Assembly (NCBI RefSeq): GCF_900142475.1 | Contig: NZ_FRAY01000002.1 | Location: 124,001 to 188,000, forward strand | Source of the DNA: Fibrobacter sp. UWH4 | Lineage (GTDB): Bacteria > Fibrobacterota > Fibrobacteria > Fibrobacterales > Fibrobacteraceae | Length of the DNA: 64,000 nucleotides | Reading direction: 5' to 3' | Shown: positions 37,626 through 53,961 of the stretch, one piece after another | Numbering within the stretch: the stretch's first letter is position 1 | How the letters are laid out: each line of letters begins with the position of its first letter | Position numbers and translations under genes: made by a program | The notes under the pieces: generated by a model | The model's database searches: none | What the model saw: only the letters and a program-made list of their open reading frames with translations | What the model was told of the DNA's origin: nothing

Positions 37626-37675
37626 AGAAAGCCTCCGGTAACCTCATGAATTCAGACTAAGCAAATTTAGTTTAT

Positions 37676-51241: not shown

Positions 51242-51640
51242 AGTGGTTATGAGGTCGCTTCGCTTTGAGGTATGAGCGTCGCCGCGAGCGGCTAGTGGTT
51301 AAGGTTAATTGTTTCGCAGGCAAAGATAGGTTATGCAAAGGCTTCGGTCAAGAAAAAAAGTTAACCGTCTACAAAAAAGCTAATTTTTAACGCAGATTTT
51401 GCGTAATTAGTTGAAAATTCAATCAAAAATAGAGTAAAACAAGGAACCTGACACAGCAAGAATTGTTCGCTACGGCAAATTCTAGAGCTTAGGAGCACTA
51501 ATTTCGGGTCAATCCGAGGCAATTCCGTCCACCACGCCAAAACCTATCACTCTATTTTTTCCGCAGATTTTGCGTAAATAAATAAAGCGGTATGTTATAG
51601 ATAAAAACTATCTTTAATCAAAGAAAAATTGTATAACCAA
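51242..51640. other. Long AT-rich intergenic region with direct and inverted repeats
   Basis: No gene was found in this ~400-base stretch upstream of the attenuator. CGCAGATTTTGCGTAA occurs at 51391-51406 and again at 51562-51577, each with a CGCA...TGCG palindrome. AAAAATAGAGT (near 51427) and ACTCTATTTTT (near 51549) form an inverted pair between them. These may be regulator sites for the adjacent promoter or a decayed mobile element. Confidence 0.5.
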
Positions 51641-51655
51641 ATAACCCGATTTCGG

Positions 51656-51684
51656 TTGACAGCGTTATTGTTTTTGTCTATATT
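51656..51684 (+). promoter_or_regulatory. Sigma-70-type promoter of the cysteine attenuator
   Basis: TTGACA at 51656-51661 and TATATT at 51679-51684, separated by 17 bases, both close to consensus. Transcription would start near 51692, before the leader peptide. Confidence 0.8.
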
Positions 51685-51714
51685 ATTCCTACACAAACGA
51701 TAGGAATTAAAAAA

Positions 51715-51777
51715 ATGACTCAAAAAATGATGAACAAGTGTTGTTTCTGTTGGGGTCGATGTCGAACGGGCGACTAG
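51715..51777 (+). CDS. Cysteine-rich leader peptide
   Basis: A 20-codon frame from ATG 51715 encodes MTQKMMNKCCFCWGRCRTGD, with four Cys codons (TGT) in residues 9 to 16, three Met codons and one Trp. AGGA lies 9 to 10 bases before the ATG. It sits between a promoter and an intrinsic terminator, just upstream of genes that make cysteine. This is the layout of a transcription attenuator in which ribosome stalling at scarce Cys-tRNA prevents terminator folding. The alternative is a conserved small protein without a control role. No such leader is recorded here by database search, which I could not run. Confidence 0.7.
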   Translation: MTQKMMNKCCFCWGRCRTGD

Positions 51778-51838
51778 TTTTTAGGCTTTTATCTAAAACA
51801 GATTCCCGCTCGGTTTTGTCTCCGGAGCGGGATTTTTT
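51778..51838 (+). promoter_or_regulatory. Attenuator: competing hairpins and intrinsic terminator
   Basis: TTTTAG and CTAAAA around 51778-51796 form an upstream hairpin. A second hairpin, TCCCGCTC (51804-51811) with GAGCGGGA (51825-51832) and a 13-base loop, is followed by TTTTTT. It lies 50 bases before the mccB-like gene, so it would stop transcription unless prevented. Confidence 0.75.
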
Positions 51839-51887
51839 ATTCGAATTTTAACAATAAATGGCGCATGGCGCTAAAGGACTTCAAAAA

Positions 51888-53048
51888 ATGTCAATTTCCA
51901 AGTATATCGAAACGAAACTCATCCACGGCGGCATCGATGGTGACAAGGTCACCGGAGCCGTTAACGTGCCCATCTACCAGACTTCTACCTACAAGCAGGC
52001 GGGTCTCGGCGAAAATACCGGCTGGGAATATTCCCGCACGGGTAACCCCACGCGCGCAGCCCTCGAAGCGCTGATTGCCGACCTTGAAGGCGGTGTCGCG
52101 GGCTTTGCTTTTGGTAGCGGCATGGCGGCTACCTCTACGGTGCTTTCGCTTTTCAAGCAGGGCGACCGCATCATTATCTCTAGCAATGTTTATGGTGGTA
52201 CCTTCCGCGTTCTGGATAAAGTTTTCAAGAACCTCGGCATTACCTATTCTATTGAAGATACGACCGACTTGGCAACGCTCGATACCAAGGTGACGCCCGA
52301 TGTGAAGGCCTTCTTTATCGAAAGCCCGGCGAACCCGCTCCTGACCGTGACGGACTTGGCGGGAGTCGCCGCGATTGCGAAGAAGCATGGAATTCTGACC
52401 ATTGTCGACAACACCTTCATGACTCCTTACTTGCAGCGCCCGCTGGAACTTGGCGCCGACATCGTGGTGCATTCCGCGACCAAGTACTTGGGCGGCCACA
52501 GCGATGTGGTGGCAGGCCTCGCCGTAACGAATAACAAGGAAATCGCAGAAAAGCTTGCGTTCAATCAGAATGCCGTGGGTGCGGTGCTCGGCCCCTTCGA
52601 TTCGTTCCTCCTGATTCGCGGTATCAAGACGCTTGGCGTGCGCCTCGATCGCCATACCGAAAATGCGGAACGCATTGCCCGCTACCTGGAACAGCATGAA
52701 GCCGTGAAGCGTGTTTATTATCCGGGACTCCCGACCGCTCAGGGCTACGAAATCAACAAGAAACAGGCCAAGAACGGCGGCGCCATGATTTCGTTCGAAC
52801 TTTACGAAAACTACGACATCAAGAAATTCTTCAAGGCACTGCAGCTGATTTCGCTGGCCGAAAGTTTGGGCGGTGTTGAAAGCCTCGTATGCCATCCGGC
52901 CACCATGACCCATGCCTCTATTCCGAAGGAAATCCGCGAAAAGGTGGGCATTACCGACGGACTCATTCGTTTGTCTGTAGGTATCGAAAAAGTCGATGAC
53001 ATTATCTTGGATTTGAACGCCGGCATTAGCGCCGCAAAGGAAGCATAA
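51888..53048 (+). CDS. mccB: Cystathionine gamma-lyase/synthase family PLP enzyme (MccB-like)
   Basis: This trans-sulfuration PLP enzyme shows KLIHGG, VPIYQTSTYKQ, YSRTGNPTR, GSGMAA and SATKYLGGHSDVVAG with the PLP lysine. The family includes cystathionine gamma-synthase, beta-lyase and gamma-lyase. Coupling to the cysK/CBS-like gene one base downstream matches the reverse-transsulfuration pair mccA-mccB that turns homocysteine into cysteine, so gamma-lyase/homocysteine desulfhydrase activity is likely. ATG at 51888 follows AAGGAC by 8 bases; an ATG 30 bases upstream is less likely. The gene is behind the Cys leader. Confidence 0.83.
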   Translation: MSISKYIETKLIHGGIDGDKVTGAVNVPIYQTSTYKQAGLGENTGWEYSRTGNPTRAALEALIADLEGGVAGFAFGSGMAATSTVLSLFKQGDRIIISSNVYGGTFRVLDKVFKNLGITYSIEDTTDLATLDTKVTPDVKAFFIESPANPLLTVTDLAGVAAIAKKHGILTIVDNTFMTPYLQRPLELGADIVVHSATKYLGGHSDVVAGLAVTNNKEIAEKLAFNQNAVGAVLGPFDSFLLIRGIKTLGVRLDRHTENAERIARYLEQHEAVKRVYYPGLPTAQGYEINKKQAKNGGAMISFELYENYDIKKFFKALQLISLAESLGGVESLVCHPATMTHASIPKEIREKVGITDGLIRLSVGIEKVDDIILDLNAGISAAKEA

Positions 53049-53049
53049 T

Positions 53050-53961
53050 ATGCATTACTACGAATCGATGCAATCTTTAATCGGGAAGACTCCGCTTGTA
53101 AAGCTTAACCATGTCGGACTCCCCGAAGGCGTAAACCTGTTTGCTAAACTCGAACTCTGGAACCCCTCGGGCAGTGTGAAGGACCGCACCGGCCTTTACA
53201 TGGTAAACGACGCGATTGAAAAGGGTCTCCTGAAACCGGGTGGAACCATTGTGGAAGCCACCGCAGGCAACACCGGCCTCGGCATCGCCTTCGCGGCACT
53301 CAACCGCGGCATCCGCGTGATATTCGTGGTGCCCACCAAGTTCTCGCAAGAAAAGCAGACGCTCATGCGCGCCCTCGGTGCAGAACTCATCAACACCCCG
53401 CGCGAAGACGGAATGCTCGGCGCCGAAAAGAAGGACGAAGAACTCCTGACGCAAATTCCGGGCTCTGTTTCGCTAAGGCAGTTCCGCAACATGGCAAACC
53501 CGCTGGCCCATTACGAAACCACCGGCCCCGAAATCTACGAGGATCTGGACGGACAAATCGACTACGTGGTCGCAGGCGCAGGCAGTGGCGGCACCTTCAG
53601 CGGAATCCTTAAGGCGCTCAAGGAAAAGAACCCTAACATCAAGGGCGTACTCGCAGACCCCATCGGCTCTACTATGGGCGGCGGCGAACATGGCGACTAC
53701 AACATCGAAGGAATCGGCAACGACTTTATCGCCGACACCATGGACATGTCGCTCGTAGATCAGGTCATCAAAATCAACGATGACGACGCCTTTGGCGGTG
53801 CCCGCGAACTCGCCAAGAAAGAAGGAATCTTCGCAGGCTCCTCTTCGGGTGCCGCGTTCACCGCTGTCAAGAAACTCATCGCCTCGGGCGCCCGCGGAAA
53901 CATCGTGTTCGTAGCACCCGACCGCGGCGACCGTTACTTTAGCAAGGGATTGTATGAGTAA
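53050..53961 (+). CDS. mccA: Cysteine synthase/cystathionine beta-synthase-like (MccA-like)
   Basis: The 303-residue fold-type II PLP enzyme has LIGKTPLVKLNHVG, NPSGSVKDRTGLYM with the PLP lysine, EATAGNTGLGIA, GAGSGGTFSGILKALKE and EGIGNDFIADTMD. The EGIG(N/Y)DFI motif is characteristic of MccA-type enzymes, which combine homocysteine with O-acetylserine to cystathionine. With the preceding gene it completes reverse transsulfuration. The start codon is one base after the mccB stop. Plain cysteine synthase activity is possible. A convergent gene ends 12 bases away. Confidence 0.83.
   Translation: MHYYESMQSLIGKTPLVKLNHVGLPEGVNLFAKLELWNPSGSVKDRTGLYMVNDAIEKGLLKPGGTIVEATAGNTGLGIAFAALNRGIRVIFVVPTKFSQEKQTLMRALGAELINTPREDGMLGAEKKDEELLTQIPGSVSLRQFRNMANPLAHYETTGPEIYEDLDGQIDYVVAGAGSGGTFSGILKALKEKNPNIKGVLADPIGSTMGGGEHGDYNIEGIGNDFIADTMDMSLVDQVIKINDDDAFGGARELAKKEGIFAGSSSGAAFTAVKKLIASGARGNIVFVAPDRGDRYFSKGLYE

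Follow-up and report, generated by a model that had tools for sequence, protein, structure and literature searches.

Can a short stretch of DNA ahead of two cysteine genes adjust their expression to the cell's supply of charged tRNA-Cys? The question is raised by a 64-kb window of the Fibrobacter sp. UWH4 genome (the whole stretch of 64,000 nucleotides analysed here), where mccB and mccA are preceded by a promoter, a small cysteine-rich reading frame and a terminator. An earlier note on this DNA had proposed that the region follows the classic logic of leader-peptide attenuation. We conclude from sequence and its comparison among relatives that the leader is very probably a ribosome-mediated (trp-type) transcription attenuator sensing charged tRNA-Cys. 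All window coordinates below refer to the forward strand unless stated otherwise.

Promoter, leader frame and gene pair

The leader begins with a sigma-70 type promoter, TTGACA-17-TATATT (51656-51684), whose consensus score of 11/12 matches its earlier description as near-consensus; most relatives have TTGACR or TTGCCA with TATATT or TAAATT. Counted from the transcription start expected for this promoter, the 5' UTR ahead of the leader ORF would be about 25 nt long, and it contains a Shine-Dalgarno AGGA (51702-51705), 9 nt 5' of the ATG, kept as ATAGGAAA or AGTAGGAA in most leaders. The ORF, MTQKMMNKCCFCWGRCRTGD, has 20 codons, from the ATG at 51715 to a TAG that ends at 51777, and its Cys codons are numbers 9, 10, 12 and 16 (51739, 51742, 51748 and 51760), so that the 20-residue peptide with four Cys codons in eight positions is present just as claimed. 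Promoter, AGGA, ATG and stop follow one another in that order, and translation of the frame is predicted from them. Four Cys in eight codons occur in the leader ORF and in one other among the 734 short ATG ORFs of the window. The other, at 37647 on the minus strand, was set aside as a chance frame; it runs across the beginning of a lipoprotein gene in a different reading frame.

The genes downstream both belong to PLP enzyme families. The mccB gene (51888-53048, with an alternative in-frame ATG at 51858) is of the cystathionine gamma-lyase/homocysteine desulfhydrase type (Cys_Met_Meta_PP), and mccA (53050-53961) is of the CysK/CBS type (PALP); the two are adjacent and co-directional in every relative whose locus is long enough to tell. 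Among solved structures the mccB product is nearest to 4l0o, which is named a cystathionine gamma-synthase, then to 7d7o, a bifunctional cystathionine gamma-lyase/homocysteine desulfhydrase, and then to cystathionine gamma-lyases. The mccA product is clearly nearest to 5xw3, named an O-acetylserine lyase (E 6e-94); a cystathionine beta-synthase comes second, at 5e-77. Taken by itself, the sequence of the pair is also compatible with forward enzymes. Elsewhere in the genome, however, there is a separate cysK that scores well above the curated cut-off, which the window's copy does not reach, and there is also a cysE. The separate canonical cysK and cysE, together with the structure matches, favour reverse transsulfuration by enzymes of the MccB and MccA types, and in this way support the proposal that the two genes make cysteine from homocysteine.

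Upstream of the promoter lies a further conserved element, GAAAAATTGTATAAC (51623-51637), which has a mean identity of 94% among 21 species, vs about 45-70% for the sequence around it. One clade has 29-30 nt between the start of AATWGTATAAC and the -35 hexamer and the other has 19 nt, a difference of one helical turn, and this shift in spacing suggests a site for an activator; the element is a candidate activator or UP site. No second exact copy of it was found in the four genomes searched. Initiation is probably controlled as well, besides attenuation, given how strongly conserved and helically phased the element is.

Two mutually exclusive structures

The intrinsic terminator occupies 51804-51838. 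Its stem pairs 51804-51811 with 51825-51832 (plus GG:CC) and is followed by six T, the whole reading TCCCGCTC(GG...CC)G-GAGCGGGA-TTTTTT. With a loop longer than 8 nt it escaped a simple terminator scan, but the alignment leaves the earlier note's clear terminator well founded: 94% of cells are paired, and two species have a compensated change of one pair, from C-G to T-A. Folding gives an average of -17 kcal/mol and a mean z of -4.3 (34 distinct sequence pairs).

The terminator's 5' side has a second possible partner. An upstream arm, GTCGAACGGG (51761-51770), pairs with CCCGCTCGGT (51805-51814), which serves as the 3' arm of an antiterminator and also as the 5' arm of the terminator, as judged by folding and by the count of pairs. 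In the examined leaders the partner of the terminator 5' arm is 51761-51770 or its homolog; 90% of cells in this helix are paired, vs 30-54% for slid versions. When the transcript is folded as it would be present before the terminator 3' arm is made, the antiterminator segment has an average of -18 kcal/mol (range about -11 to -27) and a mean z of -3.0 over 34 distinct pairs, and beats shuffled sequence in nearly all species. Its covariation is weak, as the arms differ little among members of the genus: in 15 of 500 shuffles the paired percentage is as high as observed, and just 4 cells have changes on both sides. The antiterminator of G000 itself falls below the average strength, with a z of only -1.1 (24 of 200 shuffles did equally well) and one A-C mismatch. 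Taken as a single fold, the whole leader shows no unusual stability (z -0.64); the structural signal emerges only when both competing structures are scored separately, across species. Another register, CGGGCG:CGCTCG, fits nearly as well and was ranked second, because the longer one is contiguous, with more variable pairs. An upstream structure proposed by RNAalifold for alignment A2 was unconvincing; G018 was misplaced in that alignment and was afterwards treated apart.

Two small hairpins accompany the long helix. One, GTCG(AACGGG)CGAC (51761-51774), is an alternative to the antiterminator and is kept among 22 sequences, as GTCG:CGAC in 17 of them (one with a G-U pair) and in a shifted register, GATG:CATC, in the other five, which are the clade carrying ATC. 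By analogy it may act like the protector of trp attenuators. The other is an AU-rich hairpin within the antiterminator loop (51779-51798), seen in the fold of the pre-terminator transcript. The earlier note had cast an upstream hairpin as the competitor of the terminator; small upstream hairpins do exist, but the main competitor is the long antiterminator 51761-51770/51805-51814.

From this arrangement we infer that ribosome stalling sets readthrough, in the following direction. RNA polymerase would start about 25 nt 5' of the leader ORF, with a ribosome translating close behind. With ample Cys-tRNA the ribosome would reach the stop codon (51775-51777) and cover 51761-51770, an arm that begins inside the last Cys codon; the antiterminator would then be blocked, the terminator would fold and transcription would end before mccB. 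With scarce Cys-tRNA it would stall early in the Cys run, at 51739-51750, and its front would reach about 51751-51761, so that all or most of 51761-51770 could pair with 51805-51814 once that segment emerged. The antiterminator would thereby prevent the terminator, and mccB-mccA would be transcribed to make cysteine from homocysteine. The footprint of a ribosome extends some 15 nt beyond the first base of the P-site codon. On that assumed footprint, stalling at codons 9, 10 or 12 would leave the arm essentially accessible, and a ribosome at the stop codon would cover it.

Constraint on the leader across Fibrobacter

The upstream regions of mccB orthologs of at least 88% identity were inspected in 22 related genomes, and a Cys-rich leader was found 5' of mccB in all of them, the divergent G018 included. 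A covariance model of the leader has strong matches (E < 1e-12) in 48 of 80 genus genomes, and the same model run on 168 phylum genomes adds one more, G156, from another genus of the family; a second leader model matches in 49 of 111 family genomes. Genome-wide, the strong matches precede either mccB or a methyltransferase and cysK operon. The closest matches in another sequence collection are labelled mostly Fibrobacter succinogenes or Fibrobacter sp. Weak matches (E > 1e-4), in other genomes and on contig 3 of G000, look like CCCGC-type terminators without a poly-Cys leader and were rejected.

The earlier note had suggested an alignment of the leader among relatives as a check, with free variation of frame, Cys codons and hairpins counting against attenuation. 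These do not vary freely. The 53 leaders from the genus and its sister genus comprise 36 distinct peptides, and every one keeps 3-6 Cys codons; leader calling demanded at least 3 Cys, and such an ORF was present in every strong model match. The terminator and the mutually exclusive antiterminator are both kept, so the attenuation logic put forward earlier fits. What does vary is the N-terminal half of the peptide, the residues between the Cys (F, W, S, M, V, H), their spacing and the position of the stop, and the indels in the Cys region are multiples of three. Among the 172 Cys codons of the distinct leaders 154 are TGT and 18 TGC, vs 77 and 151 in the window's long ORFs (n=228): the leaders prefer the less used Cys codon.

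Past the Cys run, the DNA TGTCGNNCGGGC(GAC/ATC)TAG is nearly invariant. In several genomes a premature in-frame stop follows directly after the Cys run (TAA in G068; TGA in G035, G067, G099, G062 and G063), just ahead of this DNA or within it, and beyond these stops the antiterminator arm is non-coding yet nearly unchanged. Since the arm is conserved even where it is untranslated, the Cys codons appear to be retained because they are translated, and the arm because of the RNA structure that it forms.

Any explanation of the locus has to accommodate what sequence and comparison establish: the ORF, the conservation of its Cys codons, the two exclusive structures in their order, and the gene pair. 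Nascent-peptide sensing has been proposed for some Cys-motif uORFs, and a peptide as rich in Cys as this one, with a highly conserved C-terminal CRCR(A/T)G(D/I), might bind a metal or react to redox and so stall or release the ribosome. We consider such a sensor very unlikely. The number and spacing of the Cys vary (3-6; CCCC, CCFC, CCVC, CCW), the downstream genes make cysteine, as far as enzyme-type matches indicate, and the premature stops remove the conserved C-terminus in several species while the DNA stays, which argues that conservation there concerns the RNA rather than an arrest peptide.

It is just as improbable, in our view, that a fixed, unregulated partial terminator happens to follow a chance Cys-rich ORF and sets only a basal level, with regulation exerted through the conserved upstream element. 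The strong conservation and helical phasing of GAAAAATWGTATAAC 5' of the promoter would suit such an arrangement, as would the CCCGC-type terminators found elsewhere in these genomes, but a fixed terminator has no need of a competing antiterminator, which is kept, and would not account for Cys codons retained across 36 different peptides. Control of the terminator by a metabolite riboswitch or a tRNA-binding T-box would share its terminator and antiterminator logic with ribosome-mediated attenuation. The Cys T-box and S-box of Firmicutes likewise govern sulfur amino-acid genes through transcription termination; they bind tRNA or SAM directly and do not need an ORF. However, neither was detected in the window: Rfam covariance models (T-box, S-box and known amino-acid leaders) gave no family at gathering score across the 64 kb. 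The leader is also short for a T-box, and direct binding would leave the in-frame indels and the Cys codons unexplained. We regard this as the least probable of the three alternatives, scarcely to be entertained beside an attenuator that reads Cys codons through the ribosome.

Two leaders depart from the common type. G018 (MFYSKKIQCCMRGRC) and the second locus of G089 (MTIQFANICCMNDRC) are divergent and shorter, and their structures use other stems, ACGGGCG:CGCCCGT vs GCCCGTG:CRCGGGC, with exclusivity retained. G089 also has a paralogous leader of the common type, which precedes an LCM/TIGR00027 methyltransferase and then a different cysK (L063:389-2620); this is an independent association of the leader with a cysteine gene. 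The leader of G156 precedes an LCM/TIGR00027 methyltransferase too (L061:1144-2165), whose frame is divided between two overlapping ORFs.

The leader is not universal in the genus. Ten nearly complete genomes are without it (G009, G025, G026, G033, G036, G065, G066, G075, G078 and G079); these have at least one canonical cysK, some near other PLP genes of Cys/Met metabolism. Leaders 5' of canonical cysK were sought in genomes without the element and none were found. Cysteine supply seems to differ within Fibrobacter. Two mccB loci labelled Fibrobacter, L140 and L143, also lack such a leader. In L143 (1170-1512), promoter-like and Shine-Dalgarno-like remnants run directly into mccB; leader ORF and terminator are both absent, and the attenuator was apparently deleted by nature. 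Conversely, a Fibrobacter-type mccB, 98% identical and with the leader, stands on a contig labelled Clostridiales bacterium Firm_16 (L135, LVAV01000030.1), which is probably a misbinned MAG contig.

Cysteine leaders in other bacteria

The upstream regions of mccB relatives from other organisms were inspected at 66 loci. A Cys-rich ORF followed by a terminator is present in a rumen spirochaete (L146:1285-1500, with a near twin, L225) and in Clostridia (L168:560-777, and L256 on the minus strand), and three of these loci (L146, L168 and L256) also have an antiterminator that pairs with the 5' arm of the terminator; L199 (1300-1500) has CCCCC and a terminator, with no clear antiterminator. All are unrelated in sequence to the Fibrobacter leader. 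At this window's composition about 0.05 such Cys-rich ORFs are expected by chance per 400 nt, so that a few of 66 loci would show one by chance alone. The Cys leaders of L146 and L168 are likely to be real on account of their paired structures. T-boxes were sought 5' of mccB in a sample of clostridial and spirochaete genes, and none were found. We tentatively hypothesize, with slightly less than even confidence, that attenuation of mccB by Cys leader peptides evolved on several separate occasions in gut bacteria from different phyla (Fibrobacter types I and II, a rumen spirochaete and Clostridia), and that duplication in Fibrobacter brought the module to a second operon, of LCM-type methyltransferase and second cysK, to give a small cysteine attenuation regulon.

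The principle itself is already known. The Fibrobacter leader resembles the trp, his and leu attenuators of Proteobacteria in its ORF of cognate codons, its antiterminator opposed to a terminator and a stop codon placed for masking of the arm; it differs in amino acid (Cys), in genes (MccB-MccA) and in phylum (Fibrobacterota), and no sequence relation is known. Nor are cysteine leaders new. In Rhodobacterales (Alphaproteobacteria), uORFC-8-2 before cysS has tandem Cys codons and a terminator with a U-run, and is predicted to be a ribosome-mediated attenuator; it controls cysteinyl-tRNA synthetase and has two Cys codons, mostly TGC (PMC8632094), whereas the Fibrobacter leader has mostly TGT and, by gene position, lies before mccB-mccA rather than cysS. 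Leader peptides with Cys runs have been described for cys operons of Mycobacterium and Propionibacterium (P. acnes) and for cbs of Bifidobacterium (B. longum), where no conserved terminator hairpin was found and Rho was suggested (PMC1262725). They share with the Fibrobacter leader a Cys-rich peptide before cysteine genes, and the B. longum cbs product is an enzyme of a similar pathway. The polycysteine sORFs of mycobacteria are called leaderless in the title of Canestrari 2020, as cited by PMC13236596; the Fibrobacter ORF has a Shine-Dalgarno sequence and a predicted 5' UTR, and may differ in this respect. It also differs from the mycobacterial leaders, which by PMC1262725 lack conserved terminator hairpins, in being followed by an intrinsic terminator. 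The earlier note had held that such an attenuator was not described. For Fibrobacter this stands, as we found no description of attenuation for the phylum or of cysteine attenuation for the MccB-MccA pathway in the literature searched, but Cys leader peptides as such were known in Actinobacteria (PMC1262725) and Rhodobacterales (PMC8632094).

What is new here is the phylum, the pathway and the recurrence of the solution. The MccB-MccA pathway joins the predicted targets of cysteine attenuation, and the repeated occurrence of unrelated Cys leaders ahead of mccB in other bacteria of the rumen would offer a useful example of convergent regulation. In practice, the leader sequence can aid the annotation of cysteine genes in MAGs. 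For the Fibrobacterota, major cellulose degraders of the rumen, the leader provides a concrete predicted RNA mechanism for the control of amino-acid genes.
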